A stretch of 64,000 nt of DNA from assembly GCF_900109365.1 (NCBI RefSeq), contig NZ_FNZR01000003.1:124001-188000 (forward strand). Reading direction: 5' to 3'. This stretch comes from Parapedobacter koreensis. Its GTDB lineage: Bacteria > Bacteroidota > Bacteroidia > Sphingobacteriales > Sphingobacteriaceae. This document shows, in pieces, positions 43,611 to 50,319 of the stretch. The position numbers were made by a program, and so were the translations under genes. The first letter of the stretch is position 1. Each line of letters begins with the position of its first letter. The notes below the pieces were generated by a model. It saw nothing but the letters and a program-made list of their open reading frames with translations. It was not told where the DNA came from and did not search any database.

Positions 43611-43990
43611 AAGCAAACCTGTTCTATCGCTCCGGCTGATGCCGGGGAGGAAAGTCTGGACAACGCAGAGCGCCCCGCTTCCTAACGGGAAGGGCTTCGG
43701 CAATTGCCGGAGTACGGAAAGTGCCACAGAAAACAAACCGTCCCGAATGCTTTCGGGATAAGGGTGAAAACGCGGGGTAAGAGCCCACGGCTTTGCATGG
43801 CGACATGCATCGCGGTAAACCCCGGGGGTTGAAAGGCCAAATAGGTTGCGGAAATTAAGGGAGTTGCTCGTTTCCATCCCGCAAGGGAGCCGCAACGGGT
43901 AGGCCGCTGGAGCTTGTCAGTGATGGCAAGCCAAGATAAATGATAGAAATCCTGATTGGGATACAGAATCCGGCTTATAGGGTTTGCTTT
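43611..43990 (+). ncRNA. rnpB: RNase P RNA, bacterial class A
   Basis: About 380 nt. The 5' end AAGCAAACC pairs with GGTTTGCTT at the 3' end (helix P1). The conserved GAGGAAAGTC block lies at 43647-43656, ACAGAAAACAAACC at about 43723, GGTAAGAGCCCAC at about 43776, and the distal AGATAAATGATAG ... ACAGAATCCGGCTTAT at about 43934-43979. The RNA is the catalytic subunit that removes tRNA 5' leaders. The base after GAGGAAAGTC is T where C is usual. Apparent reverse-strand ORFs here are artefacts. A T-run follows P1 and ends the transcript. Confidence 0.97.
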
Positions 43991-44035
43991 TTTTAGTTTG
44001 TGATACCGTGCGCAATACGCAATACCCAATAAAAT

Positions 44036-45777: not shown

Positions 45778-46959
45778 CTAAGCTATTTCTGCGATAAAAA
45801 GACCTTTTTGATCAATAACCGCCCGGTTTTTCAGGATATTGTCCAGCTTGATCTTCCCAATGATATATTTGTAATTTTCGGCATAATAGCGTTCGCTGAT
45901 TGACGTAAATCCAAGGCGTTCGATAAGGTTTTCATCTTCATAACGGAGGTATACCTCCAATTCCCAATCGGTACTGTAAGCGATCCCATTGGCATCAATA
46001 TGTTTTTTATATTCGTATCGATAACCGTACCGCAAAGCGGCAATGTCTGACAATACAGCGGATCCCGTGGGATGCCCTCCGGCACCTTTGCCATAGAAAA
46101 ATTGCTCGTCAGCGAATGCAGCCTTGACGAGTACGCCATTGTATTCGTTTTCCACATTGTATAGTATATTTTCCGGCGAAACCAATTTTGGCATTACGTA
46201 TAAAACCACCGACGTGTCGTTGATTTCCCGTGCCGTAGGTATCAGTTTAATTTTGAAATTTTTCTCCCTAGCAAATTGGATATCGGAGGCGCTAAGCTTG
46301 TCGATTCCGATATTTAAGATGGCTTCCGGGGAAACGTAAAGACCGTACGCATGCGAGGCTACAATGGCTAGTTTGAATTTTGGATCAAATCCGCCGACAT
46401 CGAGCGTGGGGTCGGTTTCCGCAAACCCGAGATCCTGGGCTTGCCGCAGTGCCGTGGCATAAGGCAGATTTTCATTGAATATTTTAGATAGGATATAGTT
46501 GGATGAGCCATTGAAGATCCCCGTTACGGCATGCAGCAATTCGTTGTCATAGTACTCTTCAAGGTTTCTGATGATGGGAATGCTGCCACATACCGCCCCT
46601 TCATACAGCAGACTGGTACCATGCTCATGCTGGAGGGCTATTAACTCGGCCAAATGGGTAGCAATCATTTTTTTGTTTGCTGATACCACATTTTTACCAG
46701 ATTGGAGCGCGCGTGAAACAATGTCGAAAGCGGCATCCGCATCGTCTATAAGTTCGACAATGGTATTGATTTCCGGATCGTCCAGTACAGCGTTGGCATC
46801 CGTGGTAAATAGTTCGGCCGGTAATGTGCGTTTCTTTTCGGGATGTTTGATGACAAATCGCTTGATAGCAAGGTTGAGATTTTTGGTTTTGATAATGTCG
46901 TGCAATCCTTGTCCTACTACACCAAAACCGAAAATACCCAAAGTAAGTTTGTTGTTCAT
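45778..46959 (-). CDS. hom: Homoserine dehydrogenase
   Basis: 393 aa. NAD(P) site GIFGFGVVGQGLHD, then the catalytic domain with VVSANKKMIATH, LLYEGAVCGSIPIIRNLEE and AQDLGFAETDPTLDVGGFDPKFKLAI. It lacks the C-terminal ACT regulatory domain, as in short monofunctional enzymes. It reduces aspartate semialdehyde to homoserine for methionine and threonine. It lies 24 bp downstream of metX on the same strand and is the third gene of a metY-metX-hom operon headed by a SAM-I riboswitch. Confidence 0.95.
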   Translation of the reverse strand: MNNKLTLGIFGFGVVGQGLHDIIKTKNLNLAIKRFVIKHPEKKRTLPAELFTTDANAVLDDPEINTIVELIDDADAAFDIVSRALQSGKNVVSANKKMIATHLAELIALQHEHGTSLLYEGAVCGSIPIIRNLEEYYDNELLHAVTGIFNGSSNYILSKIFNENLPYATALRQAQDLGFAETDPTLDVGGFDPKFKLAIVASHAYGLYVSPEAILNIGIDKLSASDIQFAREKNFKIKLIPTAREINDTSVVLYVMPKLVSPENILYNVENEYNGVLVKAAFADEQFFYGKGAGGHPTGSAVLSDIAALRYGYRYEYKKHIDANGIAYSTDWELEVYLRYEDENLIERLGFTSISERYYAENYKYIIGKIKLDNILKNRAVIDQKGLFIAEIA

Positions 46960-46983: not shown

Positions 46984-48051
46984 TTAGGCTATTTGCTGAT
47001 CCATCTGCTGATAAATAGCTGTGTTTTGCGGCTTATGGCAAGCGAGGAATCCGGAGATTTTTTCCGCGATGTGCTTGGTCTCCATGAGGAACCCATCATG
47101 GCCATAAAAAGAGTTGATCTCGGCATAGGTAGCGCCGGGAATATGGTCTGCGAGGTATTTCTGCTCGTCTGTTGGAAAAAGCAGGTCGGTACTGATACCG
47201 ATAACCAACGTATTCGCTTTGACTTGGCGTAAGGCATCTTCAATACTTGCCCGCTTCCGGCCTACATTGTGGCTGTCCATAGTTTTGGTCAGCAACCAAT
47301 AGCTGTAGGCGTTGAACCGCTTGACCAATTTTTCGCCCTGATAATGCTGGTACGAGGAGGCCCTGAAATCATCTTGTTTTTCATTTGATGCCTCTCGTTG
47401 GGTAGCACCGTAGGCGTGGTATCCGCGGTAAGACAATAGGGCAATGCTCCGAGCTGCTTTTAGACCTTTGGCCCCGCCATTGGGAGCGTTTGCATAGAAG
47501 GTGCGATCGGCACCAATAGCCAACCGCTGGCTTTCGTTGAATGCGATGCCCCATGGCGAATGGACAGCATTGGTGGCCACTAATACGAGGTTGGCGATGC
47601 GGTTGGGATCGGCAATAGCCCATTCCAATGCCTGCTGTCCGCCCAAAGAACCACCGATGGCTAAGGCTATCTGCTCGATGCCAAGGTGATCAGCCAATAG
47701 GCTGTGCACAGCAACTAAATCCCGGATGGAAAACTGGGGGAATGAGAGGTAATAAGGCTGGCCTGTTACCGGATTCATGCTCAATGGATTGGTGCTGCCG
47801 TATGGTGATCCGATGATATTGGCACAGACGATGAAATAATCTTGTGGATTAAAAAAATCGGTATCACCGAATAACCCCGGCCACCATTCAAACACGTCCG
47901 AATTGGCAGTAAGTGCATGGCATACCCAGATAACATTGTCCTTCCGATCATTCAATGCACCATAGGTGTGGTAAGCGATTTCAAGATGTTTAATGCGTTT
48001 CCCACTTTCAAGTTTAAATGTTTTTGGATATCTAAATGTATGTATACTCAT
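46984..48051 (-). CDS. metX: Homoserine O-acetyltransferase
   Basis: 355 aa. Alpha/beta hydrolase with nucleophile elbow GGSLGGQQALEW, early WVCHALTANSDVFEWW and the late Asp/His region ending FYGHDGFLMETKHIAEKI. It acetylates homoserine from acetyl-CoA. A succinyl-specific variant is possible but the MetX-type layout is plain. Between metY (39 bp) and hom (24 bp) in the same operon, so three consecutive steps from aspartate semialdehyde to homocysteine are encoded together. Confidence 0.95.
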   Translation of the reverse strand: MSIHTFRYPKTFKLESGKRIKHLEIAYHTYGALNDRKDNVIWVCHALTANSDVFEWWPGLFGDTDFFNPQDYFIVCANIIGSPYGSTNPLSMNPVTGQPYYLSFPQFSIRDLVAVHSLLADHLGIEQIALAIGGSLGGQQALEWAIADPNRIANLVLVATNAVHSPWGIAFNESQRLAIGADRTFYANAPNGGAKGLKAARSIALLSYRGYHAYGATQREASNEKQDDFRASSYQHYQGEKLVKRFNAYSYWLLTKTMDSHNVGRKRASIEDALRQVKANTLVIGISTDLLFPTDEQKYLADHIPGATYAEINSFYGHDGFLMETKHIAEKISGFLACHKPQNTAIYQQMDQQIA

Positions 48052-48090: not shown

Positions 48091-49425
<1,335 letters not shown>

Positions 49426-49509
49426 TTAATTGATATGCATTCGAATATCTCGGTGGTGATGATATATCGTATACACGCCGCTACACCGGGCAGCAGCTTG
49501 TCTACGTAT

Positions 49510-49547
49510 AGCACATTATGGGATTAGCAGCACATGTGCCTCATCCC
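49510..49547 (-). promoter_or_regulatory. Mutually exclusive hairpins overlapping the leader ORF end
   Basis: On the minus strand GGGAT (49547-49543) can pair with ATCCC (49524-49520), closing an inner GCA-CATG-TGC. Alternatively GCACAT (49539-49534) can pair with ATGTGC (49516-49511). The structures share bases and cannot coexist. Both involve the last Met/Cys codons and stop of the leader ORF, the geometry of an attenuator. No T-run follows, so control would be by translation or RNA decay. Confidence 0.45.
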
Positions 49548-49628
49548 GCAACACATTCGCCTAGTTGAAATAACGGATGTGGTAAGGGAAATGGAATAAC
49601 GATTGCCGCTTGCTGAGTACATGTTCAT
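49524..49628 (-). CDS. Cys/Met-rich leader peptide upstream of metY (34 aa)
   Basis: ATG at 49628, TAA at 49524-49526. The last 12 residues are RRMCCGMRHMCC: four Cys and three Met, with paired Cys codons before the stop; the N-terminus has two more Met. The first codon lies one base after the 3' strand of the SAM aptamer's P1 helix, so aptamer folding could cover its initiation region. Its end overlaps alternative hairpins. Composition and position suggest a ribosome-sensed leader for cysteine/methionine supply. I know no named family; this is inference from sequence. Confidence 0.55.
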   Translation of the reverse strand: MNMYSASGNRYSISLTTSVISTRRMCCGMRHMCC

Positions 49629-49629
49629 A

Positions 49630-49759
49630 GTCTTATTAATTTATATGCTCCCAACAAAACATAGAGTTGGGACAGGAATTGGCACCTTTTCTGCCATTTG
49701 CGGATGGTTGCCAGTGGGTCATTGAGCCAGTCTCTCGCCACTTCTTTATAAACCAAGAC
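49630..49759 (-). promoter_or_regulatory. SAM-I (S-box) riboswitch
   Basis: Read on the minus strand: P1 5' side GTCTTGGTTTATA, then GAGAGACTGGCTCAATGA, GGCAACCATC, P3 CCAT/ATGG, and AAGGTGCCAATTCCT (49687-49673 approx.), the hallmark J3/4-P4 segment of S-box RNAs. P4 is a CCCAAC/GTTGGG hairpin; the P1 3' side is TATAAA...AAGAC. The order and conserved blocks match SAM-I. It sits 235 nt before metY and should sense S-adenosylmethionine. The expression platform is probably the leader ORF region, not a classical terminator. Confidence 0.92.
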
Positions 49760-49792
49760 CTTTTTGAAGAGGAATTGATTTGTGTGTGTTTA

Positions 49793-49805
49793 CACACGAC
49801 GTGTG
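49793..49805. promoter_or_regulatory. Palindrome at the metY transcription start
   Basis: CACACG-A-CGTGTG is a perfect 6-1-6 inverted repeat immediately downstream of the -7 box, covering the predicted start site of the metY transcript. A repressor binding here would block initiation. No regulator gene is adjacent, so the factor is unknown. Confidence 0.5.
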
Positions 49806-49837
49806 CAAATATAACGGGTGTGATTTGTATGTGCAAA
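49806..49837 (-). promoter_or_regulatory. metY operon promoter (TTTG-N20-TATATTTG)
   Basis: On the minus strand TTTG (49837-49834), a 20-nt spacer and TATATTTG (49813-49806) match the Bacteroidota consensus perfectly. Predicted start near 49799, about 40 nt before the riboswitch aptamer. Confidence 0.8.
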
Positions 49838-49860
49838 GTATTTTTGATTTTTTTGTAGGA

Positions 49861-50319
49861 ATGAACATTACATTTAATACCGCAGCGCTGCTGTTTCCGG
49901 CAATCAGCTTGATTATGCTGGCCTACACCAATCGTTTTTTGGCGCTGGCTGCTTTGGTACGCAGCTTACATGCCAAATACCTTGAACATAATAAAAGTGG
50001 TGTGTTACACGGGCAAATCCGGAATCTTCGGTATCGGCTTAAGCTGATTAAGCAGATGCAGGCTATGGGAGTGTTAAGTTTCGTGGCATGCATCGCGTGC
50101 ATGTACTGTATTTATATCGGGCACGTTTATCTCGCAGAGTTGACGTTTGCGTTGAGCCTTCTTTTTTTTGCTATATCGCTTATTATTTCATTGGTCGAGA
50201 TTCAGGTGAGCAATAAGGCGCTTGAATTGGAATTGAGTGACATGGAAGAGGGGAATGACACCTCGTTGGTCGATTATATCAAGAAGAAATTTGACAAGAA
50301 AAAAAATGGCCCTCAATAA
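49861..50319 (+). CDS. DUF2721 membrane protein
   Basis: 152 aa from the ATG at 49861 (preceded by AGGA); the frame upstream overlaps the metY promoter and is not coding. LLFPAISLIMLAYTNRFLALAALVRSLH is the DUF2721 signature, followed by a basic loop, two more TM helices (LSFVACIACMYCIYIGHVYL, TFALSLLFFAISLIISLVEI) and an acidic, then lysine-rich tail. Function unknown for the family. The hairpin that ends glnN is embedded in its last codons. Confidence 0.87.
   Translation: MNITFNTAALLFPAISLIMLAYTNRFLALAALVRSLHAKYLEHNKSGVLHGQIRNLRYRLKLIKQMQAMGVLSFVACIACMYCIYIGHVYLAELTFALSLLFFAISLIISLVEIQVSNKALELELSDMEEGNDTSLVDYIKKKFDKKKNGPQ

Follow-up and report, generated by a model that had tools for sequence, protein, structure and literature searches.

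The window, which is the whole stretch of 64,000 nucleotides that was analyzed, carries on its minus strand the genes metY, a metX-like homoserine O-acetyltransferase and a homoserine dehydrogenase (Table 1). The gaps between these genes are only 39 and 24 bases, which suggests that the three form one operon. The metY product falls in the TIGR01326 subfamily of O-acetylhomoserine sulfhydrylases, named 'O-acetylhomoserine aminocarboxypropyltransferase/cysteine synthase' (an NCBIfam annotation only), and this placement makes a cysteine signal beside SAM plausible. For a cysteine route in the window's own genome, one match resembling serine acetyltransferase stayed under its cut-off, and four enzymes matched PF01053 strongly. 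Because MetY is 81-87% identical to its Sphingobacterium homologues, the genome is probably Sphingobacteriaceae-like. Upstream of metY we observed a full SAM-I (S box) aptamer followed by a short ORF, whose stop codon lies 128 nt ahead of metY, and the aptamer itself is preceded by a probable promoter. On the opposite strand of the window an RNase P RNA of bacterial class A was also observed (43611-43993, plus strand, 259.4 bits).

Table 1. Features of the metY operon and its leader, in window coordinates
Feature	Position	Strand	Basis and details
Probable Bacteroidota-type promoter	49837-49806	minus	TTTG (49837-49834), 20 nt, TATATTTG (49813-49806); read from the sequence
Extended P1, 5' strand	49747..49760	minus	GGTCTTGGTTTATA; duplex prediction
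SAM-I (S box) riboswitch aptamer	49754-49638 (117 nt)	minus	RF00162, 75.3 bits against a gathering cut-off of 44.4, model positions 1-108 of 108
Extended P1, 3' strand	49629..49645	minus	TATAAAT-TAA-TAAGACT; ends at -1, adjoining leader AUG; duplex prediction
Leader peptide ORF	49628-49524	minus	34 codons, ATG start, TAA stop, translation MNMYSASGNRYSISLTTSVISTRRMCCGMRHMCC
Core of leader end, CGA-ATG-(T/C)G	49552..49559	minus	CGAATGTG; in-frame CGAATG in 9/9 leaders of the genus and in 16 from Sphingobacterium
Tandem Cys codons TGC TGC adjoining the stop	49527..49532	minus	window sequence; CC-stop in 7/9 genus leaders
Hairpin X (GGGAT...ATCCC), encloses leader end and stop	49520..49547	minus	fold, -9.6 kcal/mol
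Hairpin Y (GCACAT...ATGTGC), alternative to X	49511..49539	minus	fold, -5.8 kcal/mol
Long hairpin behind the leader, no U-run	49459..49514	minus	fold of 49440-49520, z -2.02
metY, O-acetylhomoserine sulfhydrylase	48091..49395	minus	PF01053, E 9.4e-139; TIGR01326, 686.5 bits, cut-off 495.1
metX-like homoserine O-acetyltransferase, second gene	46984..48051	minus	PF00561; TIGR01392 best NCBIfam match, 354.4 bits, below its cut-off of 500
Homoserine dehydrogenase (hom), third gene	45778..46959	minus	PF00742/PF03447; NF004976 above cut-off

The original prediction had placed a 34-codon ORF between the aptamer and metY, and such an ORF is present; the span given for it (49520-49628) overshot the stop by 4 bases. 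The C-terminal end of its translation reads RRMCCGMRHMCC before the stop, and the peptide had no NCBIfam match up to E 1. To follow this ORF in relatives we used 89 metY loci, consisting of 9 from the window's genus and the best 80 of 590 confirmed named loci. The named hosts include Sphingobacterium, Pedobacter, Mucilaginibacter, Daejeonella and Lewinella, and several others are metagenome bins with possibly unreliable labels. A SAM-I aptamer over the Rfam cut-off was found at 81 of the 89 loci (9/9 in the genus and 72 of the best 80 of 590), the eight loci without one being L044, L045, L046, L049, L055, L067, L075 and L094. An ORF was observed right behind the aptamer in all 81 of these loci, and the reading frame, on whose conservation the original prediction depended, is kept far outside the genus. 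Eighty of the 81 leaders were tabulated and L038, for which a wrong start had been picked, was read separately; L094 is likewise absent from the 80-row table because it has no SAM-I. Counts out of 80 below refer to these tabulated leaders, drawn from the 9 genus loci and the best-80-of-590 set.

The position and size of the ORF varied little. Its ATG lies 5-14 nt past the Rfam aptamer end in all 72 of the named SAM-I loci from the best 80 of 590 and 7-9 nt past it in the nine genus loci, where the ORFs have 33-45 codons. Over the 80 leaders the length is 25-46 codons and the distance from leader stop to metY is 77-208 nt. The promoter consensus applied at the window site is one that we take to be typical of Bacteroidota. 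A sigma-70-style scan chose the same site (TTTGCA/TATATT) with numbers near chance, and the strict motif TTTG-N17..21-TANNTTTG was observed upstream of the aptamer in 48 of the 80 leaders; the stretch from leader start to metY contains it in none of the 80. The accessible part of PMC9723704 quotes the sequence TAnnTTTG.

Within the window's genus SAM-I was found in 9/9 genomes with a total of 23 copies, nine of which precede metY and 14 of which precede other genes, presumably metE, metF or amidohydrolase-like genes judging by the likeness of their first residues. A Cys/Met-ended ORF was observed in 0 of the 14 non-metY leaders, which rules out the notion that every SAM-I leader of the genus carries a peptide. 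Seven of the nine genus metY leaders end exactly in CC-stop and one in CCCA-stop, while L019 stops early after RMCRD. Eight of the nine contain at least three Cys plus Met in the last ten codons; the remaining one is the truncated L019, whose CC end is lost.

The enrichment at the leader end was observed well beyond the genus. Cys and Met together make up 405 of the 800 last-ten residues of the 80 leaders (51%; 288 Cys and 117 Met), compared with 67 of 2024 residues elsewhere in the same leaders (3%; 45 Cys and 22 Met). At least three Cys plus Met occur in the last ten codons of 71 of the 80 leaders, against 8/80 and 1/80 in the two shifted frames, 0/80 in antisense and, over 200 shuffles, a mean of 0.63 and a maximum of 3 leaders of 80. 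Adjacent cysteines (CC) were found within the last ten residues of 59 of the 80. The form of the end varies and includes CICMCCCC-stop in Mucilaginibacter, CMCCCIG-stop in Pedobacter and nine consecutive Cys in the metagenome bin L103. The nine leaders with fewer than three Cys plus Met are L019 and eight from Sphingobacterium. Most Sphingobacterium leaders end in R-M-R-stop or R-M-C-stop, and four (L028, L030, L033, L043) end in C-stop, which in three cases follows a stretch rich in Met, for example MSMRMRMHMHLPTC-stop. Of the eight Sphingobacterium leaders with fewer than three Cys plus Met, L029, L039 and L042 have zero Cys in this part, and what is read in this genus may therefore be Met, or else the peptide as such.

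Codon-level change was examined in 13 non-overlapping leader pairs of equal length, picked greedily from 49 pairs. In the last ten codons 12 of 26 single-change codons were synonymous (expected 0.174, p 6.5e-4), and in the leader body 34 of 86 (expected 0.228, p 3.7e-4). This first null ignored transition bias, and when the observed bias was allowed for (kappa 1.92) the values weakened, with the last ten at an expected 0.200 (p 0.0023) and the body at 0.260 (p 0.004). Nonsynonymous changes outnumber synonymous ones in the leader pairs despite this synonymous excess over expectation. Recurrence of the Cys/Met-rich ends with synonymous changes, which the original prediction had anticipated in relatives, was thus found, and well outside the genus. 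Both cysteine codons are used, with 172 TGT and 116 TGC in the last ten codons of the 80 leaders.

A sharper view of the frame comes from Sphingobacterium, where 16 of 20 leaders contain the string CGA-ATG-[CGN or TGC]-TAG; the set of 16 excludes L028, L030, L033 and L043, which are of another leader type, and the Sphingobacterium alignment leaves out L032 and L038. The third base of the last codon in these 16 leaders is A in four, T in four, C in six and G in two, with the flanking bases fixed or varying in one or two members, and codon reading is the only explanation for a single free base inside such a string. As a bare 8-mer the window's version of this core is not rare (5 window matches against 6.26 expected). 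The Arg codon before the conserved Met (window 49557-49559) is CGA in 25 of 25 leaders, nine from the genus and 16 from Sphingobacterium, although a change of its third base could be synonymous; this invariance, for which tRNA-Cys sensing gives no reason, could reflect a slow codon or an RNA contact. Conservation, the frame, strand and shuffle controls and the codon analysis together rule out a chance ORF, and from these comparisons of sequence we regard it as near certain that the frame is real and encodes a Cys/Met leader peptide.

The link between aptamer and leader is the P1 helix. In the window the predicted P1 duplex ends at -1, next to the leader AUG, so that the leader does lie directly after P1 as originally described. 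A fold of 49621-49770 gives the same P1 helix, with an ordinary energy for the stretch as a whole (z -0.85). Across the comparative set P1 extends beyond the Rfam model, and its last pair is 5 bases or fewer from the AUG in 73 of 79 leaders (9 genus and best-80-of-590 set; L101 was left out because its 5' motif was not found). Six of the 79 leaders, the genus member L007 among them, are without P1 pairing near the AUG. Pairing of each 5' strand with its own partner averaged -9.56 kcal/mol compared with -8.86 kcal/mol for swapped partners (p 0.001, n=79), a small margin and a permutation p that is not a strict probability, as leaders within one genus are related. The P1 sequence differs between lineages and the helix is kept. 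SAM binding stabilises P1 in the SAM-I class, and because P1 reaches the AUG, bound SAM would cover the region of leader initiation. SAM gating of leader initiation is therefore likely on this model. For the earlier claim that SAM controls the start of the leader, the extended P1 reaches the AUG region as gating requires, and the gating itself we infer.

The structures behind the leader gave a less uniform picture. The original prediction had proposed a choice between two mutually exclusive hairpins at the leader end, and both fold in the window (Table 1, X and Y). Hairpin X has a z of -1.91, with 10 of 200 shuffles as good, and its own-versus-swapped pairing in the genus gave p 0.016, or 0.074 without the truncated L019. 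Hairpin Y has a z of -0.90, with 36 of 200 shuffles as good, and no comparative support in the genus (p 0.70). Judged by folding energy, X stands out somewhat and Y is ordinary. We accordingly dropped Y, and with it the X/Y pair as a switch, and kept X as a weak candidate. Self-pairing of the downstream region in the genus reached p 0.037 in one slicing and 0.77 in another (several slicings, p uncorrected for their number), and pairing of the ORF end with the downstream region was no better for own than for swapped partners (genus p 0.48, all 80 p 0.67).

A different hairpin, starting at the last base of the stop codon, was observed in Sphingobacterium, where own-versus-swapped pairing gave p 0.0002 in 15 leaders. 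Applied to all 80 leaders the test again gave p 0.0002, and in a mixed group of 10 it gave 0.014 (several slicings, uncorrected); it fails in the window's genus (p 0.77), in the Mucilaginibacter-type leaders (0.22) and in the Pedobacter-type leaders (0.36). Of the 16 Sphingobacterium leaders, nine have the arms GTCGTC/GACGAC and five have GTCGTT/AACGAC, and the remaining two, L027 and L032, are weaker; for L035 the exact arm can be seen in the alignment, where an automated reading gave a different one. In our model a ribosome at the stop codon would open this Sphingobacterium hairpin. No terminator-like site was found within 49300-49900, and there is no U-run behind the window's hairpins. In the 3' part of the leader C is more frequent than G (0.212 against 0.120 for the 80 leaders), a composition that is compatible with Rho and is not evidence for Rho. 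As no intrinsic terminator was found and C exceeds G in this part, Rho-dependent termination or translation coupling would be the likeliest final step.

To see how far the arrangement extends we turned to loci outside the set above. In a phylum sample of 95 SAM-I loci (the 30 best of those listed and 65 picked by hand), a Cys/Met-rich ORF directly behind SAM-I was observed in three, all of them metY loci of the window's family. Many SAM-I metY leaders of other families in this sample are without such an ORF, and the close coupling of aptamer and leader is for this reason taken as lineage-limited. The pattern C-M-C-C-C gave 68 listed matches, spread over 57 of the 296 genomes of the phylum; since the reversed-pattern control gave about 30, many of the matches are expected by chance. 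Of the 68 listed, 66 were examined as 30 fetched loci and 36 hand-taken regions. These include metY copies (L151, L152, L153, L156) as well as leaders ahead of other genes. A polycysteine leader lies 337 nt ahead of a PAPS reductase gene, from which a smaller ORF separates it (L162), and polycysteine leaders with strong terminator hairpins lie upstream of rhodanese genes (L241 and L242, the gene of the latter assigned by likeness to L241). A polycysteine leader before an OsmC-like gene has SAM-I (65.2 bits) ahead of it (L141).

Leaders were also observed before TonB-dependent receptor genes. One lies in the window's own genome (L154/L265, region G000:C7:894071) and has no SAM-I over cut-off in L154, and another is L269 (region G389:C2:2292943); their ends are ARMCMCCCH-stop and CRMCMCC-stop, respectively. 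In genus g3, which belongs to the window's family, two genomes show the order SAM-I, terminator-like hairpin (by eye), leader with an RMCM core and TonB receptor gene (L164, L208). Polycysteine leaders as a genome-wide regulon of the window genome were considered and set aside, as two pattern searches gave one further copy (L154/L265). None of three other exact core matches in the window genome lies in a leader-like ORF. A search of 121 family genomes for CGAATGTGYATGTGYTG gave 2 matches, and the exact string is hence rare.

Our main reading, to which we assign a probability of roughly 0.7, is that the methionine-synthesis operon is preceded by a two-input RNA leader made up of the SAM-I aptamer and the Cys/Met leader peptide. 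With SAM bound, the extended P1 would pair up to the leader AUG and keep ribosomes off. At low SAM the leader peptide would be translated, and charged tRNA-Cys and tRNA-Met would then set the position of the ribosome and with it the choice of leader RNA structure. Full expression of the operon would most likely require both low SAM and a shortage of sulfur amino acids. Sensing of sulfur amino acids by the leader is likely. Ribosome stalling is presumed, and because no terminator was found in the window leader, the direction of the response and the last step of control are what we infer.

Some of the evidence above can be read in other ways. The in-frame CGA-ATG-(T/C)G core of all nine genus and 16 Sphingobacterium leaders could belong to a sequence-specific arrest peptide, in which R-M-C/R-M-R, or a Cys cluster sensing metal or thiol state, stalls the ribosome and the signal is a ligand, a metal or redox. 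The recurrence of CGAATGTG in leaders ahead of four TonB-receptor genes (L154, L164, L208, L269) favors such a peptide, and the accessible part of PMC9426467 offers a precedent in CruR, which is encoded by a uORF, senses copper through its CXXC and controls Rho termination. However, leaders of other genera often end in plain Cys runs of variable length, which fits codon counting better, and the genes downstream serve methionine synthesis and not metal homeostasis; we consider an arrest peptide unlikely. A little less probable again is that the ORF serves as a landing pad, with translation per se carrying the SAM signal through Rho exclusion or metY reinitiation and the Cys/Met codons sensing nothing. 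The riboswitch-controlled uORFs of M. tuberculosis are precedents for this, namely B12/ppe2 (PMC11260477) and Mbox, where Rho is involved (PMC12810186), both as far as the accessible parts of these papers go, and the C over G composition of the leader 3' part (0.212 vs 0.120) agrees with it. It leaves unexplained, however, why Cys and Met take up 51% of the last ten codons and 3% of the rest and why polyCys leaders stand ahead of PAPS-reductase and rhodanese genes that have no SAM-I match, and a stop-to-metY distance of 77-208 nt is far for simple reinitiation.

A further reading, suggested by some conservation at the nucleotide level (CGAATG, and CGT after the stop), is that an RNA structure or a sequence motif gives rise to the Cys/Met end and that the ORF is not translated. 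We regard this as highly improbable, given the third-position freedom inside a nearly fixed string, the excess of synonymous change, the use of both TGT and TGC, the low frame controls, and a single start position with comparable lengths (25-46 codons) in the different families. The two-input leader, with SAM acting on P1 and the sulfur amino acids on the translating ribosome, remains the reading that we prefer.

In the open-access literature, searched by titles and abstract starts, no published system was found that combines a Cys or Met leader peptide with a SAM riboswitch, which agrees with the original statement that no described system is known to combine both sensors in this way in Bacteroidota. 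The usual Gram-positive expression platform of SAM-I is an intrinsic terminator, which is common and not obligatory. The window element resembles SAM-I (RF00162) in having a full aptamer over cut-off ahead of a methionine gene, with SAM binding predicted, and differs from the usual form in that no terminator was found in 49300-49900 and P1 reaches as far as the start of a leader peptide. In the same way it shares with trp-type attenuators a leader peptide with regulatory codons and differs from them in that no terminator hairpin with a U-run was found.

Closer parallels were found in the accessible portions of several papers, to which the following comparisons are limited. Polycysteine leaders have been predicted before actinobacterial cys operons and a cbs gene, with no conserved terminator hairpin (Seliverstov et al. 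2005, PMC1262725). The window leader is like these in its short ORF, its Cys runs near the stop, the sulfur genes behind it and a terminator hairpin conserved in neither, and unlike them in lying behind a SAM-I aptamer, in another phylum, with Met joining Cys and metY as the gene. In mycobacteria polycysteine leaders are reported to act as attenuators in a leaderless form (Canestrari et al. 2020, via PMC9094748), whereas the window ORF lies behind a 117-nt aptamer and a predicted promoter. The uORFC-8-2 motif before cysS in Rhodobacterales has tandem Cys codons and is a proposed ribosome-mediated attenuator (PMC8632094); a tandem-Cys uORF is common to both, but uORFC-8-2 has a terminator stem and U-run, occurs in alphaproteobacteria and has no riboswitch named in that portion of the paper. 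Control of a small upstream ORF by a riboswitch is described in M. tuberculosis for B12/ppe2, which acts by termination-reinitiation (PMC11260477), and for Mbox/pe20 (PMC12810186). The window leader is like both in this respect; the accessible text does not describe these uORFs as amino-acid sensors, and they involve other aptamers in another phylum. The tandem attenuators of Salmonella mgtCBR respond to ATP and proline, each through a short ORF (PMC3641672), and so likewise place two signals on one leader RNA, one of them through amino-acid codons of a short ORF, but no riboswitch aptamer is named in that text, unlike here. Transcriptome papers on Flavobacterium and Bacteroides speak in their accessible parts of attenuation by leader peptides, in general terms.

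Riboswitches and leader-peptide attenuators are usually studied apart, and here the two are apparently fused. The target of the riboswitch would be the leader-peptide start itself, and a single compact device would thereby gate two branches of sulfur metabolism. The leader would also extend polycysteine leaders to Bacteroidota and offer a possible answer to what serves as the SAM-I expression platform where a terminator is not visible.

The same two sensors were observed in the reverse order in genus g71, which belongs to another family of the same phylum. These loci consist of a polycysteine leader, a terminator-like hairpin, SAM-I, a second terminator-like hairpin and the gene, both on the minus strand, with L220 (G116:C1) before metY and L243 (G211:C63) before a CoA-binding protein gene. 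When L220 was refolded, a ribosome at the Cys run gave the antiterminator and a ribosome at the stop gave the terminator, and this model predicts that L220 would be on at low Cys. Refolding with a Cys stall gave a switch in one of four attenuator-like relatives (L220), while L243, L241 and L242 kept the terminator in both states. In a consensus terminator scan L243 had one leader terminator, and the leader strand of L220 had none. The remaining terminator-like hairpins of these two loci, and those of L164 and L208, were identified by eye; the first one of L220 was in addition folded. Because a reverse-order copy exists in another lineage, the pairing of both signals at metY suggests that the pairing itself has been selected. 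On slightly better than even odds we extend our reading to a general one, in which SAM-I has translation of a Cys/Met leader as its direct output and forms a two-signal sulfur gate, which would be general for SAM-I metY loci in Sphingobacteriaceae-like bacteria and some other Bacteroidota, the same sensor pair having arisen once more at metY in the opposite order with terminator-like hairpins. In a genome of another family (L262, G080:C22), an open frame ending in GCCCCCWLA-stop was observed some 110 nt past the 3' portion of a SAM-I aptamer.
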